Shown piece by piece: positions 13,810 through 52,434 of a stretch of 52,434 nt of DNA. Position 1 is the first letter of the stretch, and every line of letters starts with the position of its first letter. Under the pieces are notes generated by a model that worked only from the letters and a program-made list of their open reading frames with translations, ran no database searches and was not told the origin of the DNA. The stretch comes from Akkermansia muciniphila (GTDB taxonomy: Bacteria > Verrucomicrobiota > Verrucomicrobiia > Limisphaerales > UBA9464): the NCBI GenBank assembly GCA_945900455.1, contig CAMDJH010000006.1, positions 1 through 52,434 of the forward strand, read 5' to 3'. Both the position numbers and the translations under genes were made by a program.

Positions 13810-14301
13810 ATGGACCTGAAAGATATCAAGGCAATCATTGACCTGATGAAGAAGAACTCTCTCACGGAGTTCGAAATGGAGAAGCAAGACTTCAAGATCA
13901 AGCTAAAGCGTGCCGGCTCTGGCGGCGTCTTCGATGACGGAGAAATGGCGGCATACACCCTGGGCCGCTCCGCCGGGCCGATTCAGGCGATCGGCTCCGC
14001 CGCCATCTCTTCTGCACCCGCCTCCGCACCCGCCGCCCTCCCCCTGGCACCCGTAAACGGCGATGCCGAGATTAAGTCGCCAATGATCGGCACTTTTTAC
14101 CTGTCTCCCTCGCCCGATTCAGCGCCCTACTCCGAAATCGGTGCTGAAGTCGGCCCTGACACCGTTGTCTGTATCATCGAGGCGATGAAGGTGATGAATG
14201 AAATCAAGGCGGAGGCCCGGGGGATTATCACGTCAATCATCGCTGAAAACGGCAAACCAGTAGAGTTTGGGCAGCCGCTCTTCAAGATCCGGCCGCTCTG
14301 A
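13810..14301 (+). CDS. accB: Biotin carboxyl carrier protein of acetyl-CoA carboxylase
   Basis: AccB carries the biotin that shuttles CO2 within acetyl-CoA carboxylase, the first step of fatty acid synthesis. The 163-residue protein starts MDLKDIKAIIDLMKKNSLTE, the standard AccB N-terminus, then has an Ala/Pro linker (residues 58-85) and a biotinyl domain with SPMIGTFYLSPSPDSAPY and the biotinylation motif EAMKVMNEI, whose Lys is near residue 127. The V after AMK is a common variant of M. The ATG at 13810 is preferred over one at 13780 because it yields the family N-terminus. accC follows after 103 bases. Confidence 0.94.
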   Translation: MDLKDIKAIIDLMKKNSLTEFEMEKQDFKIKLKRAGSGGVFDDGEMAAYTLGRSAGPIQAIGSAAISSAPASAPAALPLAPVNGDAEIKSPMIGTFYLSPSPDSAPYSEIGAEVGPDTVVCIIEAMKVMNEIKAEARGIITSIIAENGKPVEFGQPLFKIRPL

Positions 14302-14404
14302 AGCGGTTTCCGCAAGCGTCATTCTTTAAACCTCTGCAACGGCCCCGTCTCGCTGGAATCGGAATCGGTCCGCTCCTCCCGATGCACTCCATCCGCTCCG
14401 AACT

Positions 14405-16558: not shown

Positions 16559-16679
16559 AACGGGGAAGCCGGTGAATCCGCAAAGAGAATGGCTTCGTGA
16601 ACCTTAAGAAGCAAATTCCTCCAACTGCAGAGCTCGAAGCACGATCCGGATTTCCCGGGCCTCCTTGAGCTTTGAAGGA

Positions 16680-38100: not shown

Positions 38101-39027
38101 AAACACGAGGGGTTTAAGGACGCGCCGATCTATCTTCGGGGCAACCCTGCGAACCCCGGTGCCATCGTGCCGCGCGGCTTCCCGAAAATCTTGGCTGGGG
38201 ACCGCCAAGCGGCGATCACGGAGGGCAGCGGTCGCCTGCGCCTGGCAGACTGGATCGCCAGCACGAACAACCCGCTGACCGCCCGCGTCGCGGTCAATCG
38301 GATTTGGCAACATCATTTCGGCCAGGGGATCGTGCGCACTTCAACCAACTTCGGCCGACGCGGCGAGCGGCCCACGCATCCCGAACTGCTAGACTACCTA
38401 GCCTTCCGTTTCCTTGAATCCGGTGGGTCGCTCAAGGCAATGCACCGACTCATGATGCTCTCCGGAGTTTACCAACGGCAAAGTGGCGCTTCGTCCGAAG
38501 CGCTCGCCGCCGATCCGGAGAATTTGCTCTTGAGCCGCATGAACCGAATCAGTCTGGACGCGGAATCGTTCCGCGACAGTATGCTGGTTGTGGCGGGCCG
38601 ATTGGACAAAGTCCGCGGTGGCGTTGGCTTCCAGGATGTCACGCTGCCGCGGCGCTCGCTTTACTTGATGTCGGTTCGCACGGGCACCAAGTCCGGATTC
38701 GCGTCGGTCTTTGACGGCCCGGACAGCAGCGCGATTGTCGAAAAAAGAAACGTCTCCACGGTGGCACCGCAGGCGCTCTTTTTGTTGAACGACCCATTTA
38801 CCATTGACCAAGCAAGGTTGCTGGCTCGACGTGTGACCCAGGAATCGGCATCTTCCGATCCTTCCGAGCAGATTCGCGGGGTGTATCGCCTTTTATTTGG
38901 CCGCCTCCCGACGAGCGAAGAAGACGCCATTGGGCGATCGCTACTCGGGGGAGCGGGCCCGGCGGATCCGTTGGAACGTTTTTGTCAGATGCTGCTTTGT
39001 TCGAACGAGTTTTTTTACGTGGACTGA
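35143..39027 (+). CDS. Giant secreted PSD1 protein with LamG-like insert
   Basis: A 1294-residue exported protein. A hydrophobic signal segment lies at about residues 20-34 (WIILAIALPARAG). DUF1549 spans about 90-305 (IRRAFYDLIGLPPTPEEIEA, GRHWLDVVRYADARD), ending in the family CxxCH (GCARCHDHKFDPISIHDYY). A coiled-coil (about 320-360) and a Gly/Ser-rich beta region (about 425-640) follow. A LamG/concanavalin-like domain lies at about 705-905 (SAGSLFLVFRVADTSAAGQR, LRLGGPGSGGSEKFRGDLAE) and DUF1553 at about 1025-1280 (LADWIASTNNPLTARVAVNR). The LamG insert suggests carbohydrate binding. The DUF1501 partner follows after 35 bases. Confidence 0.88.
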   Translation: MSRMPIGRFFSPSFPTKVGCLYWIILAIALPARAGDIAPSIQRGTPNPRSETGTGSQIPLPGSDHWAFQPVHCPVVPRVQNGGEVQTPVDAFILAALEAKKLLPAPPADRRTLIRRAFYDLIGLPPTPEEIEAFVQDRSPSAFASVVDRLLASPAYGERWGRHWLDVVRYADARDLIQLPVESDFREAWRYRDWVVDAHNRDLPYSEFIRHQIAGDLLQPKDREQIDIDALVATGLLAIADFVPGDVDKEQMIADYVNDQIDVVGRAFLGLTLGCARCHDHKFDPISIHDYYALAGIFFSTRLIPSPVLGNTPLVRVSLLPKAELERIETRKKHAADLEKQTRQLKIEADLEYMTHLERLATEQTARYLLASRKFKNQMGTPVAMGLTEFAESNTVHPRILTQWLDYFGLRNYPPCASLSRNEDEIKGLHRWSSGTNHPPAIRVNAGDEPVERKGVTFPARSLSLTPSKTSGSVIGWTSPFSGTVQLRGRVTNGKPADSKGFVAALDLRTQAGRREIASFNVTGGRAVELDAPSNPHRLGNVAVHQGDRIEFIVLPQADSTPTAVLDWTIVEVGGDRVWSATRDLAREPETDDPGNARADANRNRDVWHFLETGEVRRPTSEAAGWSDAWAAWRRALGEGDGKPPDSALVESAARQVEKELVTIRRQQAIEADAPPSGEPSQLRVETLKLQATDTRLLTSSDGRVTFWPNRARSGSRFATVAPTATGPLRTNVTIGGRSRPVLHFAGNELLEIPQTVPSAGSLFLVFRVADTSAAGQRLIGWEDASGGRHGIGLMATAGGGLHAILRKDGANGDIIAAPVTNKDFEIVSLTWGSQGATLYRQGVSVGKSSGIDGVSSDPEIKNLRLGGPGSGGSEKFRGDLAELRVYAQPLDDASRGKVEKELFDAWLNPDGPKVTPLSAMALVYDELCSPRGPFWLDDGERAGVITSKFTPRIRQIQVELEALYPSIPTNVPQAVVVLDGGPVSTKHEGFKDAPIYLRGNPANPGAIVPRGFPKILAGDRQAAITEGSGRLRLADWIASTNNPLTARVAVNRIWQHHFGQGIVRTSTNFGRRGERPTHPELLDYLAFRFLESGGSLKAMHRLMMLSGVYQRQSGASSEALAADPENLLLSRMNRISLDAESFRDSMLVVAGRLDKVRGGVGFQDVTLPRRSLYLMSVRTGTKSGFASVFDGPDSSAIVEKRNVSTVAPQALFLLNDPFTIDQARLLARRVTQESASSDPSEQIRGVYRLLFGRLPTSEEDAIGRSLLGGAGPADPLERFCQMLLCSNEFFYVD

Positions 39028-39062: not shown

Positions 39063-40505
39063 ATGAATCAGCCAGAACCGAATTCTCCCTATTCCGCGCC
39101 GCTCAGCCGCCGCGAGATGCTACGCCAAACCGGCGGCGGCTTTGGTTACCTCGCTCTGGCGAGTCTCTTGGGCGAAGCCGCCGTCACCGCCGCCGACTCG
39201 GGTGCAGTCTCTCCGCGGATCCGAGTCTCGACAAATCCGCTCGCGCCGAGGCCCTCGCATTTTGCCGGGCGGGCGAAGCGGGTCATCTTCCTGTTCATGC
39301 CGGGCGGGCCTTCCCAGGTCGACACGTTTGACCCGAAACCGCGTCTGACGCGGGACAACGGAAAACCCTCACCAAAGCTCTACCTCGGGCAGCAAAGAAA
39401 TCTTTTGGCCTCACCCTGGAAGTTCCAGAAGTACGGGCAGTCCGGCATTGAAGTCAGCGAGTTGTTTCCGCAGACCGCCCGGTGCATTGACGATATTTGC
39501 GTGATTCGCTCGATGGTCGCAGACGACACCAATCATCCCGGCGGTTGCCTGCAGATGAACACCGGCGAACGCGTCTCCTCGAGGCCCAGCATGGGAGCGT
39601 GGGTGACCTACGGCCTGGGTACCGAAAATCAGAATCTTCCGGGTTTTCTCGCGATCGGACCCGGACCCCTCATCGAAGGCGCGCGCCAATACGGGGCCAG
39701 TTTTCTGCCCGCGTCGTACCAGGGCACTTTTGTTTCCGACCTGGATAACCCGATTCGCAATTTAAAAAATCCGACGGTCGCCTCCGCGCAACACCGGCAG
39801 GAACTCGACGCCCTCAAGCGACTCAATGAACTTCACGCCGAGCAACGATCCGGCGACGGTCGCCTCGCCGCGCGAATCGACTCCTTCGAGCTCGCCTACC
39901 GCATGCAATCGGAAGCACCGGAGGCCTTCGACTTGACGAAGGAATCCGAAGTGACCAAAAAGCTCTACGGCATAGATCAGACACACACCGCGATCTTCGG
40001 AAAACAGTGCCTGCTGGCGCGGCGATTGATCGAACGAGGGGTGCGTTTCGTCCAGCTCTATCATACCACCGGTGGATTCCAGCCCTGGGACCAGCATGGC
40101 GATCTCAAGGCGGGCCACGCGAAGAATGCCGCGGCGACGGATCTGCCGATTGCGGGACTGCTGCACGACCTCAAATCGCGTGGACTGCTGGAGGATACGC
40201 TGGTGATTTGGGGAGGCGAATTCGGGCGCACACCCGCCGCACAAGGTACCGATGGCCGTGATCATCATCCCTACGGATTCAGCATGTGGCTGGCCGGTGG
40301 CGGCGTGCGTGGCGGTATGACTCACGGCGCAACGGACGAGTTAGGCTGGGACGCAGTGGAAAATCCGGTTCACGTGCACGATCTCCACGCGACGATCCTG
40401 CATCTGCTTGGAATCAACCACGAGTTGCTGACGTATCGGTACGCGGGGCGCGACTTTCGACTGACCGATGTATCGGGGCACGTGGTACACAGAATTCTCG
40501 CCTGA
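39063..40505 (+). CDS. DUF1501 (sulfatase-like) exported protein, partner of PSD1-LamG
   Basis: A 480-residue DUF1501 protein with a twin-arginine-type signal SRREMLRQTGGGFGYLALAS. Motifs VIFLFMPGGPSQVDTFDPKP, IRSMVADDTNHPGG, IWGGEFGRTPAAQGTDGRDH and HVHDLHATILHLLGINH parallel those of the gene at 18716, and the two proteins align over their whole length. The ATG at 39063 is chosen because the frame upstream overlaps the PSD1 coding region. It is 35 bases after the PSD1 stop. The gene sits at the 5' edge of the sugar locus that begins at 40603. Confidence 0.9.
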   Translation: MNQPEPNSPYSAPLSRREMLRQTGGGFGYLALASLLGEAAVTAADSGAVSPRIRVSTNPLAPRPSHFAGRAKRVIFLFMPGGPSQVDTFDPKPRLTRDNGKPSPKLYLGQQRNLLASPWKFQKYGQSGIEVSELFPQTARCIDDICVIRSMVADDTNHPGGCLQMNTGERVSSRPSMGAWVTYGLGTENQNLPGFLAIGPGPLIEGARQYGASFLPASYQGTFVSDLDNPIRNLKNPTVASAQHRQELDALKRLNELHAEQRSGDGRLAARIDSFELAYRMQSEAPEAFDLTKESEVTKKLYGIDQTHTAIFGKQCLLARRLIERGVRFVQLYHTTGGFQPWDQHGDLKAGHAKNAAATDLPIAGLLHDLKSRGLLEDTLVIWGGEFGRTPAAQGTDGRDHHPYGFSMWLAGGGVRGGMTHGATDELGWDAVENPVHVHDLHATILHLLGINHELLTYRYAGRDFRLTDVSGHVVHRILA

Positions 40506-40602: not shown

Positions 40603-42015
40603 ATGACCTCCCCCCAGCGTAGTATGGCATCACCCGACGATTCGACTCGCTCGCAACGAGTGGCGACCGCCTACGCTTTTCGCATCGCGATCGTGGCGGC
40701 GCTTGGCGGATTCTTGTTTGGTTACGACATCGCCATCATTTCGGGCGCACTGATTTTTCTTAAGTCAGCGTTCAATCTCGACCCGTACCAGCAAGGATTC
40801 GCGGTGAGCAGCGCCGCCATCGGTTGCATCGTCGGTCCCCTCGTGGCGGTTGCGCTCAGTGATGCGATTGGCCGCAGGAGAACTTTGGTAGCCGCCGCAC
40901 TGCTGCTGGGTGTCTCTGCCATTGGCACCGCCCTGCCCAGGGATATGCTCCAGTTTAATCTGCTGCGGATTGTCGGCGGAATCGGAGTCGGGCTGGCCTC
41001 CGTGGTTTCGCCTATGTACATCGCGGAGATGGCCCCGGCGCGGCTGCGAGGACGCTTGGTTTCGGTGAATCAACTGGCGATCGTCACGGGGTTGTTCGCT
41101 GCGAGTGTGGTTTCATACGCCCTATCATTCAGCGGAAGCTGGCGCTGGATGTTTGCCACCACCGCGGTTCCCGTCGTTTTTTGGCTGGTTGGGTTAACTG
41201 CGCTTCCGGAAAGCCCTCGCTGGCTTGCGGCCAAGGGGCGGGACGCGGAGGCGCTCAAGCTGCTCGCCAAGAGCGAAGGCTCGACTCAGTCCGAAGCGGC
41301 GTTGAACGAAATCAAGGCGTCGATCGCCGAGGAAACCGGCGGGATATCCGAACTTTTCCAACCCGGCATGCGCATCGCCCTCCTGGTGGCGGTCATGCTG
41401 GCAATCCTCCAACAGATGACCGGTGTGAGCATCCTCTTGGTCTATGCGCCGACAATTTTTAAGAGCGCCGGGTTTTCGGCCGCTTCCGATGCGATCTGGC
41501 AGGCAATCCCACTCAATGTCTGGAACATCCTCTGTACCGCGGTCGCCTTCTGGCTGGTGGACCGACTCGGGCGACGCCCCCTCCTCTTGATCGGCACGAC
41601 CGGAATGGCCGTGGGCCTCATCATTATGGGGTTCTGCTTTCATTTTGGCTGGTCGGGTTACCCCGTCGTCGTCGTGATGTTCTTGTGTGTGGGCGCCTAT
41701 GTCAGCAGCCTCGCACCCCTGGCCTGGTTAATCATGGCGGAGATTTTCCCAACAAGAATTCGCGGGCGAGCCATGTCCATCGCCGGAGTGGCCCTCTGGC
41801 TGGCGTTCTTCATCGGAAGCCAGATTTTTCCCCCGTTGTGCAGTTTTTTCGAAACCAAGTACGGTTCACCGGCCGGCGTTTTCTGGCTGTTTGCCGCCGT
41901 CTGTGTCTTTGCGTTTTGGTTCTGTTGGCGCTTGGTTCCCGAAACCAAGGGCCGAACACTGGAAGCGATTGCCGCTTCCTGGAAGAAACGCGGCCAAGTC
42001 GGAATCACGGAATGA
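40603..42015 (+). CDS. Sugar-porter family MFS transporter
   Basis: A 470-residue, 12-helix transporter of the sugar porter branch of the major facilitator superfamily, moving a sugar with H+. Signatures: GGFLFGYDIAIISGALIFLK in helix 1, DAIGRRRTLVAAA and DRLGRRPLLLIGTTG at the 2-3 and 8-9 loops, ALPESPRWLAAKGRD at the central loop and VPETKGRTLEAIAAS at the end. The ATG at 40603 is used; one at 40624 is also possible. It is the first gene of a long co-directional group. An ABC importer is present further downstream, so the locus has two uptake routes. Confidence 0.9.
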   Translation: MTSPQRSMASPDDSTRSQRVATAYAFRIAIVAALGGFLFGYDIAIISGALIFLKSAFNLDPYQQGFAVSSAAIGCIVGPLVAVALSDAIGRRRTLVAAALLLGVSAIGTALPRDMLQFNLLRIVGGIGVGLASVVSPMYIAEMAPARLRGRLVSVNQLAIVTGLFAASVVSYALSFSGSWRWMFATTAVPVVFWLVGLTALPESPRWLAAKGRDAEALKLLAKSEGSTQSEAALNEIKASIAEETGGISELFQPGMRIALLVAVMLAILQQMTGVSILLVYAPTIFKSAGFSAASDAIWQAIPLNVWNILCTAVAFWLVDRLGRRPLLLIGTTGMAVGLIIMGFCFHFGWSGYPVVVVMFLCVGAYVSSLAPLAWLIMAEIFPTRIRGRAMSIAGVALWLAFFIGSQIFPPLCSFFETKYGSPAGVFWLFAAVCVFAFWFCWRLVPETKGRTLEAIAASWKKRGQVGITE

Positions 42016-42048
42016 GATGTGGATCCCGTTCGGATGGATTCTTTGCCA

Positions 42049-42834
42049 ATGAAGATGCCTACTAATCAAAAAACGGTCCTGGTCACCGGAGCCGCCCAGG
42101 GATTGGGTCGCGAAATCTGCCTGCAGCTGGCGGCGAAGAACTGGCGGACCGTTGTCGCCGACCTGAACCGCGACGCAGGAGAACAGTGTGCGGCCGAATG
42201 CCGCCAGAAGGGTCCTGATTCCTTCTTTCTCCTGGCGGACGTGGGGACCGCGGAAGGGCCGGCGCAGATGGTCGAGGCCGCGGTGCGTCATTTGGGTCAA
42301 TTGGACGTGCTGATCAACTGCGCCGCCTACGCCACCGCCGAAGCCTTCATCGAAATGAGCGCCCACTCCTGGGAGCTATCGATGCTCGTCAATGTGCGTG
42401 GCATCGCGTTAGCCACCGCAGCGGCCGCGCGTCAGATGATCCCACAAGGGGGCGGGCGGATCATCAATATCACCTCGCCCGCCTCACGGATGGCGCTGCC
42501 GAATTATGCCGCCTACGCCGCCAGTAAAGCCGCGGTCGACTCCTTGACGCGCTCGTCGGCCGTCGCATTGGCTGGGAAGAATATTCAGGTTAACAGCGTC
42601 GCACCCGGGATGATGGACACTCCCATGCAGGCGAAGACCGAAGCTGCGCTTGCCGTACTCGAGGGCCAAACGGACCTGAATGCGTTCCTGGCCGCGCGCA
42701 CCGCGCGCATCCCAACCGGCCGCCGCACGACGTGCGAAGAAGTTGCCGAAGTGATCGTCTGGCTTGCCGCTGAGGCACCCGACTATGTGACCGCAGAACG
42801 CATGAACATCTCCGGCGGTCTCGATAAGGACTGA
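42049..42834 (+). CDS. Short-chain dehydrogenase/reductase (first)
   Basis: A 261-residue NAD(P)-dependent SDR. It has the glycine-rich loop VLVTGAAQGLGREICLQLAA, ADL at the end of strand 2 (NAD or NADP preference not certain), the NxA-type INCAAYA region, catalytic Ser in INITSPASRM and Tyr/Lys in YAAYAASKAAVD, and the C-terminal VTAERMNISGG. It probably oxidises a sugar or polyol, or reduces a keto-sugar, in the pathway of this locus. The start is uncertain among ATGs at 42034, 42049 and 42055. It is two bases before the first transketolase subunit and 33 bases after the transporter. Confidence 0.88.
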   Translation: MKMPTNQKTVLVTGAAQGLGREICLQLAAKNWRTVVADLNRDAGEQCAAECRQKGPDSFFLLADVGTAEGPAQMVEAAVRHLGQLDVLINCAAYATAEAFIEMSAHSWELSMLVNVRGIALATAAAARQMIPQGGGRIINITSPASRMALPNYAAYAASKAAVDSLTRSSAVALAGKNIQVNSVAPGMMDTPMQAKTEAALAVLEGQTDLNAFLAARTARIPTGRRTTCEEVAEVIVWLAAEAPDYVTAERMNISGGLDKD

Positions 42835-42836
42835 AC

Positions 42837-43685
42837 ATGATTGAAACTCATCCGTGTCACCCAGCGTTGCCGTTGGATATTCCTCACTTGCAGCGCGTCG
42901 CTCAGAGGCTGCGGCGCCATATGCTCACAATGGCTGCCGGAAAGGGACAGGGCTACATCGGCCAAGGGCTTGGGGTCGCGGACATCATGGCCGCGCTCTA
43001 CTTTCATGAGATGAAATACGATCCGCAAAACCCTGCCTGGGAGGATCGGGATCGCTTTATCCTTTCGACGGGACATTACTCGATTGCTCTCTGGGCCGCC
43101 TTGGTTGAAATCGGCGTGCTGCCCGAGGACGAACTCACGCAATACGGCGCCGACGGGAGTCGCTTGGAAATGAGCACGCTCGACTCCACACCGGGTGTCG
43201 AAATGACTGGCGGCTCACTTGGCCACGGGCTCGGACAGGGCGTCGGAATGGCGTTGGGCTTGCGCTTGGCCAAGAAAACGAGCCGTGTCTTCGTCGAACT
43301 GTCTGACGGCGAACTCCAGGAAGGCTCGACCTGGGAGGCCGCGATGGCTGCGGCGCATTTCAAACTCGACTCACTCGTCGCCATTATCGATTGCAACGGA
43401 ATCCAGGCGGATGGCCCGATGGTCTTGAACATGGAACCGGTCGCGGAAAAATGGAGAGCCTTCGGTTGGAGGACGACCGAAATTGATGGCAATGACATCA
43501 CTCAGATCGTCGGAGCGCTTCACGCGGCGCGCTCGGCATCGGGCCAGCCAAACGCCATCGTTGCACGAACTGTGCCCGGAAAGGGCGTGCCCTGCATTGA
43601 GCGATGTGAAAAGGCGCATTTCCTCAACTTGACTCACATCGATTGGAATGTCGCCCGGCGTGAACTGGAGGCTCAACATGGATAA
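42837..43685 (+). CDS. Transketolase-like enzyme, N-terminal (TPP-binding) subunit
   Basis: A 282-residue protein equivalent to the pyrophosphate-binding half of transketolase. Motifs: LRRHMLTMAAGKGQGYIGQG, ILSTGHYSIALWAALVEIG, TGGSLGHGLGQGVGMALGL and LSDGELQEGSTWEAAMAAAH then IIDCNGIQADG. The GDG TPP-site motif has Ser in place of the first Gly. Split transketolases of this kind occur in several sugar pathways, including apiose and sulfoquinovose breakdown, as well as in pentose-phosphate variants; I cannot assign this one. The stop overlaps the second subunit start by eight bases, indicating a coupled 1:1 complex. Confidence 0.88.
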   Translation: MIETHPCHPALPLDIPHLQRVAQRLRRHMLTMAAGKGQGYIGQGLGVADIMAALYFHEMKYDPQNPAWEDRDRFILSTGHYSIALWAALVEIGVLPEDELTQYGADGSRLEMSTLDSTPGVEMTGGSLGHGLGQGVGMALGLRLAKKTSRVFVELSDGELQEGSTWEAAMAAAHFKLDSLVAIIDCNGIQADGPMVLNMEPVAEKWRAFGWRTTEIDGNDITQIVGALHAARSASGQPNAIVARTVPGKGVPCIERCEKAHFLNLTHIDWNVARRELEAQHG

Positions 43686-44688
43686 GCGTGGACAAACAAC
43701 TGCGATGGGGGTGTCCGAACTCGTCGAGGGGTATCCCGTGGTCTCGGCACCCTTTGGCCAGGCGCTCGTGACTGCCGGCCAGCGCAACGAGAAAATCCTC
43801 GGGCTGACCGCTGATCTAGGGAAGTACACGGACATCCTGCCATTTGCCGAGGTGTTCCCGGAGCGATTTTTTAACGTGGGTATGGCGGAACAGAACCTGA
43901 TCGGAATCGCCGCGGGTCTGGCGCGGACTGGATTCATTCCATTCTGCACAACCTACTGCGTTTTTGCCACCCGCCGGGCTTACGACTTCATCGCCATCGG
44001 GTGCGCCTTAAGTCGAACCAACGTCAAGATTATCGCGGGCTTGCCCGGCCTGACCACCGGGTACGGCGGCACACATCAGGGAATTGAAGACCTCGCCCTG
44101 ATGCGGGCGATCCCCAACCTGACGGTGATTGATCCGTGCGATGCAACCGAAATTGCCCAAGCCACCGCCGCCATCGCCGAATACGACGGACCGGTCTATA
44201 TGCGCCTGCTGCGCGCTCGCGTGCCGGTGGTGCTCGATCCGGCCACGTATCGTTTCAAGATCGGCAAGGCACGCCTCCTGCGCGACGGAACGGAAGTCGT
44301 GCTGTTGAGCACGGGCCTGATGACGCAACGAACCCTGGAAGCCGCGGTTGAACTCGCCCGCCAGGGCTTGAGCGCGGCCGTGCTGCATGTGAGTACCCTC
44401 AAACCGTTCGACCGCGAAACGGTCCTGTCGGTCCTCGAAAGAGTGCCCTGCGTTGTCGTCGCTGAGAATCACGCCACGACCGGCGGCTTGGCCAGCGCCG
44501 TCGCCGACGCGGCCATTGACGCGGGACTGCCGCTCCGCATGAAGAGGATCGGCATCCCGGATGAGTTCTGCGAGTGCGGTTCGCTTCCTCACCTGGCTCA
44601 ACGTTACAAGATGGACACCCCCAGCATCGTCGCGGCGGTGCACGCCGTGTTGGCAGGAAAGCCCTTTTCGCCCGCGCCTGTCACGTGA
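43678..44688 (+). CDS. Transketolase-like enzyme, C-terminal subunit
   Basis: A 336-residue protein corresponding to the pyrimidine-binding and C-terminal domains of transketolase/DXS. It contains RFFNVGMAEQNLIGIAAGLA with the catalytic Glu in MAEQN, then FCTTYCVFATRRAYDFI, LPGLTTGYGGTHQGIEDLAL (the His-containing substrate loop) and a C-terminal Rossmann-like domain with AVLHVSTLKPFDRETV and VVAENHATTGGLASAV. The ATG at 43678 overlaps the end of the N-terminal subunit. It forms the active enzyme with that subunit. The donor and acceptor sugars are unknown. The next gene starts 6 bases after the stop. Confidence 0.88.
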   Translation: MDKRGQTTAMGVSELVEGYPVVSAPFGQALVTAGQRNEKILGLTADLGKYTDILPFAEVFPERFFNVGMAEQNLIGIAAGLARTGFIPFCTTYCVFATRRAYDFIAIGCALSRTNVKIIAGLPGLTTGYGGTHQGIEDLALMRAIPNLTVIDPCDATEIAQATAAIAEYDGPVYMRLLRARVPVVLDPATYRFKIGKARLLRDGTEVVLLSTGLMTQRTLEAAVELARQGLSAAVLHVSTLKPFDRETVLSVLERVPCVVVAENHATTGGLASAVADAAIDAGLPLRMKRIGIPDEFCECGSLPHLAQRYKMDTPSIVAAVHAVLAGKPFSPAPVT

Positions 44689-44694
44689 GAGTCT

Positions 44695-45882
44695 ATGCGC
44701 ATTTCAAAAATCGAAACGATCCGATTGCCGGATCACCCCAATGCACTTTGGGTCCAGGTCCACACCACCGATGGTCTGATCGGGCTGGGGGAGACCTACT
44801 ACATTCCGGGCGCGGTCGAGGCGGTGATTCATGATTTTGCAGCGCCGTTGCTCTTGGGAAAATCCGTGTATGACCGCGAGCGGCATTGGCAAAATCTGTT
44901 CTGCTCCGCAAATTTTTTCGGCTATGCGGGGGCCGAGATGCGCGCGGTGTCCGCCCTCGACATCGCACTCTGGGACCTCCTCGGGCAGTCGACCGGCCAG
45001 CCCATCTATAATCTCATCGGTGGACAATATCGCGAGTCCATCCCCGTCTATAACACCTGCGTCAACACGCCCAAGTATCACGATCAGGATGGATTCTTGG
45101 AATGCCCCGGTGAGCTCGCCCAATCGCTAGTCGCCGAAGGGTACACGCAGATGAAGGTGTGGCCCTGGGACCGGTTTGCACCGCAAATCATGGCGGCCGC
45201 GTCCACCGGGCCCGCGGGGTGGTCGGCGATGGGGCCCGTCGGGCATATCCTTTCCCCGGCGGACCTCAAGAAAGGCCTCTGGACCGTGCAGGAAATCCGC
45301 AAAGCCGTGGGCGACCGGATCGAGATTGCGATCGAAGGACATTCACGCTGGGATGTGAATTGCGCGATCCGACTCGCCCGAGCCCTCGAACCTTATGACG
45401 TCATTTGGATGGAAGACATTATCCAACCCGACAGCGTTGTAGATCTCCGGCGTTTGGTCGAGGAAACGCGCGTGCCCCAGTGCGTCAGTGAGCGTTTATT
45501 CACGAAGTACGCCTTCCGCGAGGTTCTCGAACGCCAGGCCGCGCACATCGTCATGATCGACTTGATCTGGACGGGAGGACTCACAGAAGCCATCAAAATC
45601 GCCACCCTGGCGGACGCACACCACCTGGCATTCGCGCCTCACGACTGCACGGGGCCGGTCAACGTGTTCGCGGCATTACATCTCTGTGCCGCACAGCCCA
45701 ACGCCATGATTATGGAGGTTGTGCGTGGTTTTTGCGATGGTTACTACCGCGACTTGGTGGATACCGCGGTGCCGATTCGGGAAGGTCAGGCTTGGCTCAC
45801 ATTTGGACCTGGGTTAGGCGTGAAACTGAGGCCGGAAGTGCGGGCACGCCGGGACATCAACCTGAGGGTTTCGAAGGTTTGA
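44695..45882 (+). CDS. Enolase-superfamily (mandelate racemase/MLE) sugar-acid dehydratase
   Basis: A 395-residue enolase-superfamily enzyme, most likely dehydrating an aldonic acid to a 2-keto-3-deoxy acid. The capping domain is followed by a barrel with AEGYTQMKVWPWD (Lys at the end of strand 2), metal ligands in AIEGHSRWD, DVIWMEDIIQPD and VSERLFTKYAF, and the His/Asp of FAPHDCTGPVNVF. The MKVWPWD pattern with an Ala/Gly-rich insert (AAASTGPAGW) is found in an uncharacterised group of the superfamily. It is immediately downstream of the transketolase subunits and two bases upstream of the MBL hydrolase. Confidence 0.86.
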   Translation: MRISKIETIRLPDHPNALWVQVHTTDGLIGLGETYYIPGAVEAVIHDFAAPLLLGKSVYDRERHWQNLFCSANFFGYAGAEMRAVSALDIALWDLLGQSTGQPIYNLIGGQYRESIPVYNTCVNTPKYHDQDGFLECPGELAQSLVAEGYTQMKVWPWDRFAPQIMAAASTGPAGWSAMGPVGHILSPADLKKGLWTVQEIRKAVGDRIEIAIEGHSRWDVNCAIRLARALEPYDVIWMEDIIQPDSVVDLRRLVEETRVPQCVSERLFTKYAFREVLERQAAHIVMIDLIWTGGLTEAIKIATLADAHHLAFAPHDCTGPVNVFAALHLCAAQPNAMIMEVVRGFCDGYYRDLVDTAVPIREGQAWLTFGPGLGVKLRPEVRARRDINLRVSKV

Positions 45883-45884
45883 CC

Positions 45885-46781
45885 ATGCAATTCACGAATC
45901 CTCTCCCGCCCGTGTCGCCGTCGGAAGGGTTACCGGAGCGTATCCGCCAGCGCACCGTGCCACCGGGTCAAGTGGTCGCGTGGTGGCTGGGCGGCGCCGG
46001 CTTTGTCTTCAAGACATCGCAAGGCACTCAGCTTTATGCAGACCCTTACCTGTCCGATGTCGTTAACGACATTTTCGGCCAGCAGCGTGCCTTCCCCCCC
46101 CCGCTCACGGCAGATCAAGCGTGCCCGGACGTGCTGATTTGCACCCATTGGCATGAGGATCATTTGGATCCCGGTTCGATTCCCATCATCGCCCGGAACA
46201 ACCCGACTGCGCTTCTACTGATGCCGCCGAGCGCACTGGCGCGGGCCGTCAGTTGGGGCGTGCCGCGCCGTCAAATCACGACGCTGAAAGCCGGGCAAAC
46301 TCTCGGCATAAAGGACATCACAATCTCGGCCGTCGCCGCTCGCCATAACGCGGGCGTGGAGGGTTGGGAAGTCTCGGATGGCGTCTGCCTCATTCTCGAG
46401 ATTGACGGGATGAAGATCTTTTTCTCGGGGGACACCGAGTATGACACGAGCCTTCGAAATCTCAGGAAGCTCGATTTTGACAGTGCGTTTCTCTCGATCA
46501 ACGGTGTTGGAGGAAACATGAACGCTCACGAAGCCGCGCTCCTGGCGTGGCATTGGGGCGTTGGAACCGTTGTGCCGATGCACCACTATTTGTGGAAAAA
46601 TCCCGCTGCATGCGCTGAAGCGACATTGGACCCACGCCTGCTTGAGAGCACTTATTTGAAGTTAGGCGGTATCGGCCAAGTAATCGCACCGATTGTGGGC
46701 GAAGAGATCGTCCTGGGCCAGATCTCCAGTGGGCGCAGAGGGCACCGCTTCATTTCGAATGCTGGCACCACGCAAAAATGA
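45885..46781 (+). CDS. UlaG-like metallo-beta-lactamase-fold hydrolase
   Basis: A 298-residue MBL-fold protein. It has the metal motif ICTHWHEDHLDPGS (HxHxDH), the late metal residues in ARHNAG, FFSGDTEYDTS and PMHHYLW, and no signal peptide. UlaG of this type opens L-ascorbate-6-phosphate lactone, so a sugar-lactone hydrolase role is plausible, fitting the dehydrogenases around it. The ATG at 45885 lies two bases after the dehydratase stop. Its own stop overlaps the SDR start (ATGA). The extended open frame back to 45732 is a shadow of the dehydratase gene. Confidence 0.85.
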   Translation: MQFTNPLPPVSPSEGLPERIRQRTVPPGQVVAWWLGGAGFVFKTSQGTQLYADPYLSDVVNDIFGQQRAFPPPLTADQACPDVLICTHWHEDHLDPGSIPIIARNNPTALLLMPPSALARAVSWGVPRRQITTLKAGQTLGIKDITISAVAARHNAGVEGWEVSDGVCLILEIDGMKIFFSGDTEYDTSLRNLRKLDFDSAFLSINGVGGNMNAHEAALLAWHWGVGTVVPMHHYLWKNPAACAEATLDPRLLESTYLKLGGIGQVIAPIVGEEIVLGQISSGRRGHRFISNAGTTQK

Positions 46782-47560
46782 AGGGTCTCGAAAATAAACG
46801 GGTTTTCATTTCCGGGGGTTGTGGCGACATCGGTCGCGCCGTCGCCGCACGTTTCCTCGCCGCGGACGCGAAGGTGATCCTGGGAGATCTCCTGAAATCT
46901 GAAGACGGTTGGAACCGAGCGAAATCTCTCCATTCATCGCACGCCCTCTATGTTCCCTGCGATGTCACCTCCGCGGCGTCGATCGAAGCCGCATGTTCCT
47001 TCACCGAACGAGAGTTGAAGGGGATCGATGTCGCAATTTGCTGCGCAGGCATGGTCGCAAATGAGCCGTTTGTCCAAATCACAGAAGAGAATTGGATGCG
47101 CACCCTCGACGTCAATCTGACCGGCAGCCTGCGAGTGGCGCAGGCGGCTGCGCGATTGATGATGAAGAATCCCCGAGATGAGGGTAAACGCCGCGGGGTT
47201 GTGATTTTTACCGGGAGCTGGGTCCAGGCGATGCCTTGGCCGGAAGGAGGCAGCTATTGCGCCAGCAAAGCCGGCCAGGAAATGCTCATGAAGGTAATGG
47301 CGCAGGAATTGGCACCCCATGGGATCACCTGCAACATCGTCGCGCCCGGCATCGTTTATGCCGGGCTGAGTCGTTCGATTTATGACCGCGACGCCCTGTT
47401 TCGTCAGCGCGCCGATCAGACGATCCCCCTCGGGCGGCTTTGCTCGGCCGAAGAAGTTGCCGGCGCTTTCTTGTACCTGGCAAGTCTCGACGGTGCCTAC
47501 GTAACCGGGTCGAGCATTGTGATCGATGGCGGCGCATCGTTGGTCAAACGCAACACCTAA
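46778..47560 (+). CDS. Short-chain dehydrogenase/reductase (second)
   Basis: A 260-residue SDR: VFISGGCGDIGRAVAARFLA is the nucleotide loop (GGCGDIG), followed by GDLL after strand 2, the NAG-type ICCAGMV, catalytic Ser in FTGSWVQAM, Tyr/Lys in GGSYCASKAGQEM, and a C-terminal VTGSSIVIDGGASL. It differs clearly from the first SDR in this locus, so the two probably catalyse different steps. Its start overlaps the MBL stop by four bases. The next gene begins 17 bases later. Confidence 0.88.
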   Translation: MKGLENKRVFISGGCGDIGRAVAARFLAADAKVILGDLLKSEDGWNRAKSLHSSHALYVPCDVTSAASIEAACSFTERELKGIDVAICCAGMVANEPFVQITEENWMRTLDVNLTGSLRVAQAAARLMMKNPRDEGKRRGVVIFTGSWVQAMPWPEGGSYCASKAGQEMLMKVMAQELAPHGITCNIVAPGIVYAGLSRSIYDRDALFRQRADQTIPLGRLCSAEEVAGAFLYLASLDGAYVTGSSIVIDGGASLVKRNT

Positions 47561-47577
47561 CGTTGGAAAACCGGGCA

Positions 47578-48696
47578 ATGAAATTCAATAACTCCAGAAG
47601 CAACCCGAGCACGAATCGACGTGAGTTCGTCAAATTCGCAGGACTGGCCGCCAGTGGCGTGGTCCTGACCGAACTGACGGGATGTTCACGCGAAGCCAAC
47701 CCGACGTCCCAAACCACCCCAGGGATCGGTCCACTCAAGAACAAGCGCGTGGCCATCTCCAGTCCGCACAAGGTTGAAATCCTCAATGAACTATACGAGG
47801 ACATGAAGCGCGAGGCGCGCCGACCGGAAAACCAGCTCGAAGTTGTGGTCGTGGACGGCGCCAATGACGCAGTGAAGCAGCTTGCGGACATCGAAGCATT
47901 CATGGCGCAAAACTACGATGGAATCTTCTTTATCGCCTTGCCATCGGGAGGATTGGAGCGGCTTGTCGCGAATGCCCGCGCGAAGGGTATTTTCATGTTC
48001 AACCACGGTGCATCTCCGATCACCGGGGCGACCCAGAACGTGGTGCTCGACCAACCGTTTACCGGTGCTCAAATTGGGAAGTTCGCCGCTCAGTGGATCA
48101 ACGAGAAATACGGCGGCCGGACGGAGGTCGGCATACTCGGGAACTCGAGCGACCCGTGGCTGGCAATCCGTACACAAGGCATGAAGGATGGTCTCCGCGA
48201 GCACGCGCCGGGGGCGAAGATCGTCGGTGAAGTGCATGGTCACTCAATCGAGTTGGGTGCGGCAGGTGCCGCCAATCTGTTGCAGGCACATCCCGGTATC
48301 CGAGTCCTCCTGGCGCACGCCGACGATCCCGGCTTCGGCTGTTTCACCGCGGCGATGGAAGCGGGCCGGCGTGACCGGAATCAATTTTTGGTCGCGAGTT
48401 GTGACGGCACCCGGCTGGTGATGGATAAAGTGGCCGAGGGCGGCATCTATCAAGCCACCTGGAGTTATCTATTTCCCTTCAGCGCCACGGCGTGGATGCG
48501 AGACATGATCCGATGCCTGCGCGGCCAGAATGTTGCTCCGACCCGCACGCAAGTCGGGCGCTTGGTCACCCAGGCAAACGTTGAGGAGATTCGTACCATG
48601 ACCCGCGATCCCCTCGCCCCCAATGTCCAAAAGTACTACGACGATCCGACGGTGATGCGGTACGGCAATGAACAGCTCAAGACACCCAGGACCTGA
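47578..48696 (+). CDS. Tat-exported lipoprotein, sugar-binding protein of an ABC importer
   Basis: A 372-residue type-1 periplasmic binding protein. The N-terminus NRREFVKFAGLAASGVVLTE ends in ELTGC, combining a twin-arginine motif with a lipobox, so it should be exported folded and lipid-anchored. The rest is RbsB-like: KNKRVAISSPHKVEILNELY, DIEAFMAQNYDGIFFIALPS, GILGNSSDPWLAIRTQGMKD and LLAHADDPGFGCFTAAMEAG. Its ligand is probably the sugar or sugar acid handled by the locus. It is followed directly by an ATPase and a permease. Confidence 0.9.
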   Translation: MKFNNSRSNPSTNRREFVKFAGLAASGVVLTELTGCSREANPTSQTTPGIGPLKNKRVAISSPHKVEILNELYEDMKREARRPENQLEVVVVDGANDAVKQLADIEAFMAQNYDGIFFIALPSGGLERLVANARAKGIFMFNHGASPITGATQNVVLDQPFTGAQIGKFAAQWINEKYGGRTEVGILGNSSDPWLAIRTQGMKDGLREHAPGAKIVGEVHGHSIELGAAGAANLLQAHPGIRVLLAHADDPGFGCFTAAMEAGRRDRNQFLVASCDGTRLVMDKVAEGGIYQATWSYLFPFSATAWMRDMIRCLRGQNVAPTRTQVGRLVTQANVEEIRTMTRDPLAPNVQKYYDDPTVMRYGNEQLKTPRT

Positions 48697-48713
48697 GAGG
48701 GAGGGATTTCCCG

Positions 48714-49517
48714 ATGAAATCGATGGCAACTGACCCAGCCATCTCGATTCCCGCGCCGACTCGCGCCGCCCTCATGCGCTGTGTTGGCATCAGCAAGTTC
48801 TTCGGCGGCGTGCGGGCGCTACATCGCGTGTCGCTCGATCTTTTCCCGGGCGAAATTGTCGCGCTCGTCGGTGACAACGGAGCGGGCAAAAGTACTCTGG
48901 TCAAAATCCTGAGCGGTATTTGCCAGCCCGATGAAGGCGATCTGTGGTTCGGAGAAGAACGGCCCCAACGACTTACCGCTCGTCAGGCCCGCAAGTTCGG
49001 CGTTGAGACCGTCTATCAACATCTCTCGTTGTGCGACAACCTCGGCGCTGCCGCCAACGTCATGCTCGGCCAGGAACCCGTCCGGTGGCAGCTTGGCCCA
49101 CTGCGAATTCTCGACGAGCCGCGCGCCCGGCTCGAGGCAGTGCGACGCATCGGCGAGGTCGGTGTCGTCTTGGAGGATCTCAACACGCCGGTCCGACGGC
49201 TCTCCGGCGGGCAACGCCAGGCCGTCGCCATCGCCCGCGCCATGGTCAACGCCCATCGCCTCGTGATGTTCGACGAACCCACCGCCGCACTGGGCTTAAG
49301 ACAAACGCACGCCACACTCGAACTTATCCGCCGCGTTGCCAGACAAGGAATTGCCGTCGTGCTCATCAGTCACAACCTGGACGATGTCTTCGCGGTGGCG
49401 ATGCGGATCGTTGCGTTGCGGCACGGTCAGGTGTGCCTGAACGCACTCACGGAAAAGACCTCGCGAGCGACGGTCGTGGCGGCAATGACGGGCGTGGCCC
49501 TGGAGGGAAGAGAATAG
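48714..49517 (+). CDS. ABC sugar importer ATP-binding protein
   Basis: A 267-residue ABC ATPase of the ribose/monosaccharide type, but with one nucleotide-binding domain rather than the two fused ones of RbsA. Walker A is GDNGAGKSTLVKIL, Q-loop VETVYQHLSL, signature RRLSGGQRQAVAIARAM, Walker B RLVMFDEPTAAL and switch His in VLISHNLDD. It must therefore work as a homodimer. A good ribosome-binding site (GGGAGGG) precedes the ATG. The permease starts two bases after the stop. Confidence 0.92.
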   Translation: MKSMATDPAISIPAPTRAALMRCVGISKFFGGVRALHRVSLDLFPGEIVALVGDNGAGKSTLVKILSGICQPDEGDLWFGEERPQRLTARQARKFGVETVYQHLSLCDNLGAAANVMLGQEPVRWQLGPLRILDEPRARLEAVRRIGEVGVVLEDLNTPVRRLSGGQRQAVAIARAMVNAHRLVMFDEPTAALGLRQTHATLELIRRVARQGIAVVLISHNLDDVFAVAMRIVALRHGQVCLNALTEKTSRATVVAAMTGVALEGRE

Positions 49518-49519
49518 CT

Positions 49520-50521
49520 ATGGCTAGCAACGTGATCGTGCCGCTCTGGAAACGGTGGCTGAAGGACAACGGCCGCAATCTTGGCCTGGCGCTAGCTCTC
49601 GGCTTTTCCTTGTTGGTGCTCGCCCTCCTCAGTCCGAAGTATATGACCTTCGACAATCTAGTTGTCGTCGCGCTGCAAATGGCATTCATCGGCATTGCAG
49701 CCTTGGGCACGGCGCACCTCGTGATCGGAGGGAACATCGACCTGTCCATCGGCTCGCTGTTTGCCCTGACAGCCGTATGCTCCGCGATGCTGGCAAAGGT
49801 GGCGCCTCCATTTGTCGCAATACTCGGCGCCATTCTGCTCGGGAGTGCCATTGGGCTACTGAATGGTGCGCTGATCTGGCGGGTGAAACTATCACCCATC
49901 ATCATCACGCTGGGCAGCTTGGCGATCCTGCGCGGCGTGGTTTTATTGCTGACCGGAGGTTATTCCGTGCGGGGGGTGCCGACCCATTTTGGCGAGATCG
50001 GCCAATGGCGCCTTTTCGGCCTGCCCCTGCCCGTCTGTACCCTTCTCGGACTGGCGGCGATCGCTCACTTTATTTTGACGCATACGACCCTCGGCCGACA
50101 CCTCTTCGCGATTGGCGGGAATCGGGAAGCGTGCGAAGCGGCCGGTATTCCTGTCCGCCGGCTGGTACTGGGATCGTTCCTGACGAATGGCGGCATTATC
50201 GGACTCTCGGGCGCGCTCGCCGCCAGCCGCTTCGGGTCGGCCAGTCCTTCCTTCGGAATCGCGCTGGAGTTGGATGCCATTACCGCGGTCCTTCTCGGTG
50301 GCGTCGCGTTCACCGGCGGCGAAGGCAACGTGCTCGGTGTGATGCTGGCCGTCGCTTTGTTGGGTGTGATCAATAGTGGAATCGTCTCGCTGGGAATTGA
50401 TCCCAACTACGCCGAAGTCGTGAAGGGCGCGACGCTCATCGCCGCGGTCACGCTAAACCAACTCTCCCACGAGGCGCGCGAACAGCATCGAAAGCGATCC
50501 GCAATGCGGGAATTGCTCTGA
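49520..50521 (+). CDS. ABC sugar importer permease (RbsC-like)
   Basis: A 333-residue permease with about 9 hydrophobic helices, of the RbsC/BPD_transp_2 family. Key motifs: AHLVIGGNIDLSIGSLFALT, SPIIITLGSLAILRGVVLLL, the cytoplasmic ATPase-contact loop AIGGNREACEAAGIPVRRLV, and ITAVLLGGVAFTGGEGNVLG. The ATG at 49520 is supported by the helical N-terminus and by close spacing to the ATPase stop. The same frame is open back to 49031 but only as a shadow of the ATPase gene. It completes a one-of-each ABC importer with the two preceding genes. Confidence 0.92.
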   Translation: MASNVIVPLWKRWLKDNGRNLGLALALGFSLLVLALLSPKYMTFDNLVVVALQMAFIGIAALGTAHLVIGGNIDLSIGSLFALTAVCSAMLAKVAPPFVAILGAILLGSAIGLLNGALIWRVKLSPIIITLGSLAILRGVVLLLTGGYSVRGVPTHFGEIGQWRLFGLPLPVCTLLGLAAIAHFILTHTTLGRHLFAIGGNREACEAAGIPVRRLVLGSFLTNGGIIGLSGALAASRFGSASPSFGIALELDAITAVLLGGVAFTGGEGNVLGVMLAVALLGVINSGIVSLGIDPNYAEVVKGATLIAAVTLNQLSHEAREQHRKRSAMRELL

Positions 50522-50635
50522 GCCGTTCCAGCGCCCCGGGCCGTAGACGTTCGAGCGAACTTCGGTTCGCCTGCGATTTTTTCGCGCCGAGAGCAGAATT
50601 GACGAATGCCCCGCGTGCCGGGAGGCTCTAACCCC

Positions 50636-51721
50636 ATGAAATCCTTCCACCTCGTCGCAGCGCTGCTTTGGACCCTCGCTACGGTGGCTCAGGCCGCCGA
50701 TGGAGCGATCCATCGCTACTTATACCTCGCCACACCCGACGGAGCGCAGGCGGAAAGCGCTTCGGGTAACGGCCTCCTCGTCTTCGACATCGATGACGGG
50801 TTCAAGTTCGTGCGGCGTATCGCGAACAAGGGCGAGAATTTTTCCGCTGGATTGCGCGGCCTGACAGGTTGCCTGGCCACGCATTCCCTCTACTATTCTG
50901 CCACCGCAAGGCGTCTGGGGCGCTTCGACCTCGAGACGGAACAGGTGGTGTGGGAACGCCAATACAGCGGCGGCTGTGATCGTTCCTCGGTGACGTTGGA
51001 TGGCAGCAAGGTCTTCGCACCGACGGGTTGGTGGGAAAGCTCGGACAACGGTGGCTTCGTCGTGATCGACGGCGCCACGGGCGCGGAGTTACGGCGCATT
51101 AAGGTCGGCACGGGGGCGCACAACAGTATCCTGAGCTTAGACGGGAAGCGCCTTTACCTCGGCACAACCACGCGCTTAACAATCTTCGACCCGACCGATG
51201 AGCGCGTCATCAAGTCGATCCCCGATGTCGGCGAATATGGTGTCTTTCCCTATACCATCGACCACCGGCAGCGTTACGCCTTCGTCTGCCTTGGCAAGCA
51301 TGTCGGCTTCGATGTCGTGGACTTGGCGGAGGGGAAAGCCATCCACCGCGTGCTCGCCGGGGACGCACCCATCGCTCATCGCACGCATGGCGCGGCGCTT
51401 ACGCCGGATGAGAGCGAACTTTGGATCAGCGATCAGGACGGCAAGAAGCTATTCATCTTCGATGCCACTCACATGCCACCGACGCCGAAGGGAAGCGTCG
51501 AATTGAGCGTGGGCGGTCACGGGTGGGTGAACTTCAGTCTCGATGGGAAGTTCGCCTGGTGTCACACGCCGGACGTTTTCGACGCGCACACAAAAAAACA
51601 AGTGGCGACCCTGCGCGACGAGAACGGCAAGCGGGTCGGCAGCTCCAAGCTCATCGAAGTCCACATGCAGAACCAGAAGGTTGTGCGCATGAGCAGCGAG
51701 TTCGGGTTAGGGCGGAAGTGA
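50636..51721 (+). CDS. Secreted beta-propeller (YVTN/WD40-like) protein
   Basis: A 361-residue exported protein with a signal peptide (residues 1-22, ending TVAQA) and several blades recognisable from repeats of the kind SGNGLLVFDIDD, GGFVVIDGATGAELRRIKVG, ILSLDGKRLYLGTTTRLTI and HGAALTPDESELWISDQDGK. No catalytic triad or CxxCH is visible. A strong ribosome-binding site (GGAGG, 10 bases before the ATG) supports the start at 50636. It lies 114 bases after the permease gene and may belong to the same locus, as a lactonase-like or ligand-binding propeller. Direct function unknown. Confidence 0.82.
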   Translation: MKSFHLVAALLWTLATVAQAADGAIHRYLYLATPDGAQAESASGNGLLVFDIDDGFKFVRRIANKGENFSAGLRGLTGCLATHSLYYSATARRLGRFDLETEQVVWERQYSGGCDRSSVTLDGSKVFAPTGWWESSDNGGFVVIDGATGAELRRIKVGTGAHNSILSLDGKRLYLGTTTRLTIFDPTDERVIKSIPDVGEYGVFPYTIDHRQRYAFVCLGKHVGFDVVDLAEGKAIHRVLAGDAPIAHRTHGAALTPDESELWISDQDGKKLFIFDATHMPPTPKGSVELSVGGHGWVNFSLDGKFAWCHTPDVFDAHTKKQVATLRDENGKRVGSSKLIEVHMQNQKVVRMSSEFGLGRK

Positions 51722-51770: not shown

Positions 51771-52434
51771 TCAGTCACTGCGGAGCTGCCAACCGACATA
51801 CTCCTTCGGAAAGACGAAGTTCTGCACATGACCATCACCGAATTGCATGTTGTAGGAACGGCGGCCCTTGTAGTTGTGCCAGACACTCTTCTTGTCGTTC
51901 ACGTCACGCGAGCCGTTCCAATGCCAGTCGCCCTGGATGATCTTGTTGGCGGCCGATAAGGCCACTTCGCTGGACTTAATGGACCGTCCCTCGGCCCTGG
52001 AGGGGTCGGCCCGAGAATCGCCGGTGACGTGTTTGACGCGGTACCAGTCAACCGTCCACATGTTGAGATAGCTGTTGCCCCAGCCGTCCCAACAGGTCTT
52101 GGCCTGGGGCCAGTATGAATCACCCTTGTCTGCCGGGCAGTGGAAGACATCGCTGGCGGGGGCGTAGTTATTCAGCGGACGGTTGGTTTCGGGGACTGCC
52201 TTGATGTCGGCAAAGCGCCACGGCCAGGGTCCTGGATTACCCTTGATGCGTCCGCCGACCGACGCCCAGTCATCGTGCAGCGGGTAGGAATCCTTGCTGT
52301 CGTCGGCATACATTTGGTACGCCACGGCGATCTGGTGCTGGTTGCTGGCGCACTTGATCCGGTTGGCTTCCGCCTTGGTTCGTGCCAGGGCGGGCAGGAG
52401 CATCCCGGCGAGCACGGCGATGATGGCGATGACG
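51771..52434 (-). CDS. Type II secretion-like pseudopilin, 5' end outside the window
   Basis: At least 221 codons of a second pseudopilin. The visible N-terminal part reads [20 protein letters not shown], the second half of a prepilin helix, followed by a globular domain with CASNQHQIAVAYQMYADDS, DVFHCPADKGDSYWPQAK and the ending FGDGHVQNFVFPKEYVGWQL. The H/DG-x-V-x motif near the C-terminus (FGDGHVQNF) is typical of the large Verrucomicrobia/Planctomycete pseudopilin group. The leader and cleavage site lie beyond base 52434. It is convergent with the beta-propeller gene. Confidence 0.85.
   Translation of the reverse strand, partial: VIAIIAVLAGMLLPALARTKAEANRIKCASNQHQIAVAYQMYADDSKDSYPLHDDWASVGGRIKGNPGPWPWRFADIKAVPETNRPLNNYAPASDVFHCPADKGDSYWPQAKTCWDGWGNSYLNMWTVDWYRVKHVTGDSRADPSRAEGRSIKSSEVALSAANKIIQGDWHWNGSRDVNDKKSVWHNYKGRRSYNMQFGDGHVQNFVFPKEYVGWQLRSD

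Follow-up and report, generated by a model that had tools for sequence, protein, structure and literature searches.

What might a bacterium consume, and by what route, with an operon that encodes sugar porters, dehydrogenases, a dehydratase and a transketolase (TK) and contains neither a kinase nor an aldolase? The question is raised by ten tightly packed plus-strand genes at positions 40603-50521 of a 52,434-nucleotide stretch of Akkermansia muciniphila DNA (NCBI GenBank assembly GCA_945900455.1, contig CAMDJH010000006.1), the whole of which is referred to here as the window. The most telling point, which was absent from the first-pass annotation of this DNA, is that the split TK belongs, judging from its sequence, to a subfamily stripped of the residues that bind sugar phosphates. 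The cassette probably degrades a plant sugar without phosphorylation. We propose that it does so through a non-phosphorylative oxidative pathway in which the modified TK takes the place of the usual aldolase, a reading to which we assign an even chance. The families are ordinary one by one; the novelty lies in their combination and in the altered TK. The genes, with the short names used below, are as follows.

40603-42015, plus strand: MFS sugar porter of the SP family, XylE-like, uptake system 1 (Pfam Sugar_tr 1.8e-109; NCBIfam TIGR00879 365 bits, over the cut-off)
42049-42834, plus strand: SDR1, short-chain dehydrogenase/reductase (SDR) adjoining the transketolase, the proposed maker of its ketol substrate (Pfam adh_short 1.8e-55)
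42837-43685, plus strand: TKN, thiamine-diphosphate half of the split TK (Pfam Transketolase_N 1.5e-43)
43678-44688, plus strand: TKC, pyrimidine/C-terminal half of the split TK (Pfam Transket_pyr 1e-34; best PDB match 6yaj, a split TK)
44695-45882, plus strand: ENO1, sugar-acid dehydratase of the mandelate-racemase subgroup (Pfam MR_MLE_C 9e-52; PDB 2pod/4dx3/3dip)
45885-46781, plus strand: MBL, UlaG-fold metal hydrolase, proposed lactonase (HxHxDH motif; UlaG profile 1.5e-24)
46778-47560, plus strand: SDR2, proposed sugar 1-dehydrogenase (Pfam adh_short_C2 2.7e-52)
47578-48696, plus strand: periplasmic sugar-binding protein (Pfam Peripla_BP_4 2.4e-25; PDB matches to ribose-binding proteins)
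48714-49517, plus strand: half-size ABC ATPase of the importer (267 aa, single ABC_tran domain)
49520-50521, plus strand: importer permease, ribose/arabinose type (Pfam BPD_transp_2 7.3e-42; NCBIfam AraH 184 bits, under the cut-off)

The spacers, in gene order, are 33 bases, 2 bases, an overlap, 6 bases, 2 bases, a second overlap, 17 bases, 17 bases and about 2 bases, with the ATG codons of TKC (43678) and of the permease (49520) set from the sequence. Domain searches and these measured spacers confirm the ten packed plus-strand genes and the families that had been assigned to them at first reading.

The split TK was compared with Escherichia coli TktA, the numbering of which is used throughout, in an alignment of 33 subfamily members. 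The thiamine-diphosphate core is intact (E411, H66, H261, H473 and the D155/N185 metal site): TKN keeps H66, the GxL motif, D155, N185 and H261, with H66 and H261 kept in the TKN rows aligned, and TKC keeps D381, E411, H473 and R520 in all 33 members. Elsewhere, H26 is replaced by Tyr and H100 is lost in TKN, F434 is Tyr in every member, H461 is Leu in 32 of the 33 and Met in the other, D469 is Tyr in 32 members and Ala in the remaining one, S385 is Tyr (Phe in one member), and the position of R358 lacks a conserved Arg. The five head-group residues R358, S385, F434, H461 and R520, of which only the last is retained (Arg in 33/33), thus form the motif x-Y-Y-L-R. Ordinary TKs read RSFHR at these positions and the sulfosugar TK reads RAFDR, residues that have been tied to recognition of the phosphate or sulfonate (PMC11659671). 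Among the controls, TktA itself showed all of the canonical residues, the split TK of a Fusobacterium (L084) has His 26, GHP at 100, Ser 385 and His 461, and in L050, a full-length TK, positions 26, 100 and 461 are all His. His 26 and GHP at 100 are likewise present in L086, a split TK linked to a kinase; it falls outside the single clade (support 98/92) that unites the TKs of the module with those from Proteobacteria in the TKC tree. Another split TK near an FGGY kinase (L085:4074-6017) displays intermediate motifs, with Tyr at 26, LPG at 461 and Ser at 385, and is a possible evolutionary intermediate. A TK encoded with RpiB, DhaK and DhaL (L071) was considered as evidence for an erythrulose product and was dropped, as it keeps His 26, GHP 100 and Ser 385 and lies outside the clade.

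A precedent for the use of a keto acid by such an enzyme is provided by the engineered variant TktA R358I/H461S/R520Q, which, assayed with glycolaldehyde, is more active in converting unphosphorylated 5-ketogluconate to tartaric semialdehyde (PMC12016104). Two of its three mutated positions are naturally changed in the subfamily, and by analogy with this variant the window enzyme may also act on a keto acid. In both cases an unphosphorylated keto acid would be the ketol donor, supplied by a dehydrogenase, and head-group residues are changed. The published cleavage, however, is that of a laboratory variant or a slow side activity, whereas the split-TK subfamily of the window is natural, has its own replacements, keeps R520 and is encoded in an operon that includes a dehydratase and a lactonase-like enzyme.

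In the proposed route, a free aldose would enter via the MFS porter or the ABC importer, SDR2 would oxidize it to the lactone, the UlaG-type MBL would open the lactone to the aldonate and ENO1 would dehydrate the aldonate to a 2-keto-3-deoxy acid. SDR1 would then oxidize the penultimate hydroxyl to generate a ketol (CH2OH-CO-CHOH-R or a shorter equivalent) with the carboxylate still present. The split TK would cleave next to the ketone, retain the two-carbon ketol bound to thiamine diphosphate and transfer this unit to a small unphosphorylated aldehyde, freeing the shorter aldehyde acid for central metabolism. We infer the order of these steps, the roles of the two SDRs, the substrate and the acceptor from the gene set. 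The first-pass view of a sugar or sugar-acid catabolic locus is supported, and so, as enzyme classes, are the oxidation, lactone opening, dehydration and C2 transfer that it listed.

In ENO1 the metal ligands, the third-strand His of the E-x-H motif and the D/H dyad align with those of E. coli DgoD, and the protein scores under every curated equivalog cut-off (195.8 against 311 bits for the D-galactonate dehydratase family NF010624); the record names of its PDB matches carry no specific function. The model of MBL (pLDDT 83) has UlaG structures as its top Foldseek matches (2wyl/2wym, TM score of ~0.75), and the profile comparison likewise ranks UlaG first. A lactonase role is a reasonable but unproven reading of sequence and model, since the score against the L-ascorbate-6-phosphate lactonase family NF008688 (64.2 bits) is far under the cut-off of 306. 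Sequence-similarity searches with the SDRs did not reveal a substrate. The importer comprises the CUT2 set of Peripla_BP_4, BPD_transp_2 and ABC ATPase proteins, and its binding protein has a Tat/lipobox-like N-terminus (RREFVKFAG...LTGC). The families of the complete ribose-type importer described earlier are therefore present, with the correction that the ATPase has a single ABC domain and lacks the tandem-domain form of ~500 aa seen in RbsA/AraG; it is 39% identical to the ATPase adjoining a rhizobial ENO1 homolog.

Relatives of the locus were gathered by a scan with ENO1 and by phylum searches with ENO1 and TKC. SDR1-TKN-TKC-ENO1 with MBL and SDR2 recurs in Verrucomicrobiota (L016, L017, L020, L021, L022, L024, L057, L068 and L069) and in Acidobacteriota (L023, L025, L028-L031 and L033), in some loci with single genes absent or past the contig end. 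A congener (L016) preserves the order from porter to permease but is missing SDR2, and L022 is without MBL and SDR2. The MFS porter has a linked ortholog in L016, L017 and L022. Most of the other loci in the two phyla encode a further dehydratase, ENO2; the closest match to it in the window genome is only 34% identical, so that no close ENO2 was found there. Acidobacterial loci such as L029 have the same gene content in a different arrangement, joined by GntR regulators, RhaT-like permeases and TonB receptors. The earlier statement that the locus lacks a kinase, an aldolase and a regulator holds for the window, but relatives do carry GntR, AraC or LysR genes. Two uptake systems are indeed encoded in the window; the ABC importer, however, is linked to the module only there and in L016, that is, only in the window genus, and so is local to it rather than belonging to the pathway core.

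The subfamily TK was found in seven of 388 sampled genomes of the phylum (E ≤ 1e-80; one of the seven, L071, is outside the clade) and ENO1 in four of 289, and because the genes are this rare their linkage is not background. Since this linkage recurs in two phyla, the ten-gene arrangement is not due to chance and the module is a real unit; the first-pass annotation had offered joint conservation in related genomes as the test of its proposal, and conservation is what was found. SDR1 adjoins the TK genes in the verrucomicrobial loci and in L023, L025 and L070, and is near them on the opposite strand in L028-L031. The SDR1 proteins of the module form one clade (100/99), as do the SDR2 proteins across loci (100/99). 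In the TKC tree, acidobacterial L023 pairs with verrucomicrobial L024 (97/89), a grouping which suggests that the module has moved between phyla.

The TK subfamily extends well beyond the module. A search of plasmid records with the TK at E ≤ 1e-60 returned 190 records, with a gap in identity between ~50% and 42%, and places the subfamily on plasmids of Pantoea, Rhizobium, Acinetobacter, Burkholderia and others. The plasmid loci L044-L051, L072, L073 and L075-L079 mostly consist of a LysR gene, the TK halves, a porter of the MFS or TRAP type and one dehydrogenase, which is L-threonate-dehydrogenase-like in L044/L045 and otherwise an SDR. Most of those examined are without a kinase or an aldolase, and one (L047) has a dihydroxyacetone kinase downstream. 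These mini-operons share with the window the TK subfamily, at 50-57% identity, and differ in that the TK is accompanied only by a dehydrogenase and a porter, the SDR being of another lineage. The pairing of various dehydrogenases with one type of TK is as expected if the dehydrogenase makes the TK ketol. No described function for a LysR-TK-dehydrogenase-porter mini-operon was found in the literature. Taken further, the subfamily may represent a new natural class of TK for unphosphorylated sugar-acid ketols delivered by a partner dehydrogenase, degrading acids on its own as a module in Proteobacteria and, when combined with a lactonase and a dehydratase, forming a complete sugar pathway, without kinase or aldolase, that moved between Verrucomicrobiota and Acidobacteriota; we regard this wider proposal as plausible, at slightly less than an even chance. 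If true, it would constitute natural thiamine-based splitting of sugar acids without phosphorylation, would give a function to a TK subfamily on ~190 plasmid records that is labelled only 'transketolase family protein' in the records examined, and would supply natural enzymes for biocatalysis of the tartaric-semialdehyde type.

The first-pass annotation knew of no named pathway with this exact set, and no characterized pathway among those compared matches it gene for gene. In the apiose/apulose TK pathway a sugar kinase stands beside the split TK, whereas the window locus has no kinase and the kinase-linked split TK L086 is outside the clade. The Weimberg, Dahms and L-rhamnose diketo-hydrolase routes are non-phosphorylative aldonate pathways. 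Like these and like the sulfo-Entner-Doudoroff pathway (PMC12890257), the locus combines a sugar dehydrogenase, a putative lactonase and a sugar-acid dehydratase; unlike them, it has no 2-keto-3-deoxygluconate-type aldolase, aldehyde dehydrogenase or diketo hydrolase and is linked to a TK instead. The sulfoglycolytic TK pathway (SqwGH; PMC11659671, PMC12890257) also employs a two-gene split TK with modified head-group residues on a phosphate-free sugar. There the motif is RAFDR, in contrast to the x-Y-Y-L-R of the window with its last Arg alone kept of the five positions, and the window has SDRs, a lactonase-like enzyme and a dehydratase instead of sulfoquinovose (SQ) isomerase and SqwI; neither SQ isomerase (SqvD) nor SqwI was found in the window operon, the locus being all that was searched. 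Two rhizobial loci (L052 from Shinella and L053 from S. meliloti) resemble the window in an ENO1 homolog (42-43% identity), a ribose-type importer with a half-size ATPase and an SDR, and differ in having an SMP-30 lactonase in place of MBL, no TK and an aldose 1-epimerase.

Several other explanations use the same enzymes. An SDR and a dehydratase would also fit a diketo-hydrolase route, like those known for L-rhamnose and L-arabinose, that leads from the aldonate via the 2-keto-3-deoxy acid and the 2,4-diketo-3-deoxy acid to pyruvate and glycolate (or lactate), with the TK salvaging the two-carbon by-product. One relative encodes SDR1, TK and ENO2 beside a divergently oriented 2,4-didehydro-3-deoxy-L-rhamnonate hydrolase-like enzyme (422 bits, under the cut-off of 500) and a complete glycolate oxidase GlcDEF (L070:12093-16830), a gene set that fits pentose breakdown to pyruvate and glycolate and is possibly a pentose variant. 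However, in neither the window locus nor the other module loci was a diketo-deoxy-acid hydrolase of the FAH family seen, a TK is present in nearly all of them, and the proteobacterial operons have the TK without any dehydratase, leading us to consider this route unlikely. The same operons, consisting of a dehydrogenase and a TK, lend themselves to a scheme in which SDR1 oxidizes the undehydrated aldonate to a 5-keto or 4-keto aldonate for cleavage by the TK, with ENO1 acting on another acid or on a later intermediate; the cleavage of 5-ketogluconate by engineered TktA (PMC12016104) is compatible with it. It is made quite improbable by the linkage of ENO1 or ENO2 to the TK in every verrucomicrobial and acidobacterial subfamily locus examined.

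The TK might instead be an ordinary one, acting on pentose phosphates to boost the pentose phosphate pathway with a sugar kinase encoded elsewhere, as its superfamily membership, its full thiamine-diphosphate core and the existence of FGGY-kinase-linked split TKs (L086) would allow. That is very unlikely, given that the phosphate and donor residues of canonical TKs are gone in 33/33 members, that the module includes no kinase and that further TK-like genes exist in the host genome. Inositol carriers occur among both the SP-family porters and the ribose-type importers, and a cyclitol could accordingly be oxidized by the SDRs and its diketo ring opened by MBL, which has a UlaG-type fold; in the inositol pathway of Thermotoga a COG2220 enzyme presumably opens such a diketo ring, an assignment that could not be confirmed in the literature. 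We judge a cyclitol substrate highly improbable, as the DgoD-type dehydratases, the aldose 1-epimerase with the rhizobial ENO1 homolog and the GH127-, GH36- and GH38-like glycosidases near relatives of the module all point to aldoses.

The kinase-free pathway with a ketol-cleaving TK has difficulties of its own. Placing ENO1 before SDR1 gives the TK a 3-deoxy substrate, which is a normal ketol only for C6 acids (as the 2,5-diketo-3-deoxy acid) and not for C5 acids, and in the case of pentoses ENO1 and the TK may serve different branches. R520 was mutated in the engineered TktA but is retained in the subfamily. The transferred group may not be glycolaldehyde, because H100, which we take to touch the donor C1 hydroxyl in yeast and E. 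coli TK, is lost. The module SDR1, the module SDR2 and the proteobacterial SDR form three separate clades, so that SDR1 and its proteobacterial counterparts belong to different lineages; orthology between them was considered and rejected on this basis. Finally, no GH127-like homolog was found in the window genome, in a search made without a positive control. All of these points weigh against the pathway as drawn.

Hints to the substrate come only from relatives, as the window genome showed neither a GH127-like homolog nor a close ENO2. A GH127-like six-hairpin protein with NETC and GCC motifs, residues that we take to be the zinc-cysteine site of GH127, is encoded beside the module in L017, L022 and L025. 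The family scores under the Pfam GH127 cut-off, adjoins ENO1 or the module, and includes in L022 a member that is ~30% identical to the rest. A sequence-profile search placed GH127 first, and 18 of the first 19 Foldseek matches of the model were GH127/GH146 β-L-arabinofuranosidase entries, the model being used for fold class only because of its low confidence (pLDDT 62). GH36-like proteins occur in L025 and L029 and a GH38-like protein occurs in L057. From the GH127-like neighbors we suggest, with low confidence, L-arabinose or a similar furanose as the substrate. The GH127-like genes lie at L017:316-2259, L022:3003-4790, L025:7091-8731, L026:5597-7441 and L027:6356-8146. In the last two, which are from Paenibacillus, two ENO1-like dehydratases flank GH127-like and GH36-like glycosidases with a DUF6786 gene adjoining, and no TK is present in the stretch examined.

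Downstream of the operon, a β-propeller-like gene (50636-51721), in which the Pfam search found no domain, starts 114 bases past the permease, as had been noted at first reading; its membership of the locus was rejected, as it has no counterpart in the congener L016 or in the other loci. It is followed on the minus strand by a pseudopilin-like protein (51771-52433) that is truncated by the end of the window. The same pseudopilin-like protein ends the L016 locus (14083-14814), where the β-propeller gene is missing. Upstream, PSCyt2/PSD1 (DUF1549/DUF1553) proteins are encoded at 35143-39027 and 39063-40505 and also at 16665-18683; the DUF1553-DUF1501 pair that immediately precedes the MFS gene is conserved in L016 and not in the other module loci. 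A CotH kinase protein with EF-hand repeats is encoded at 29775-31811.

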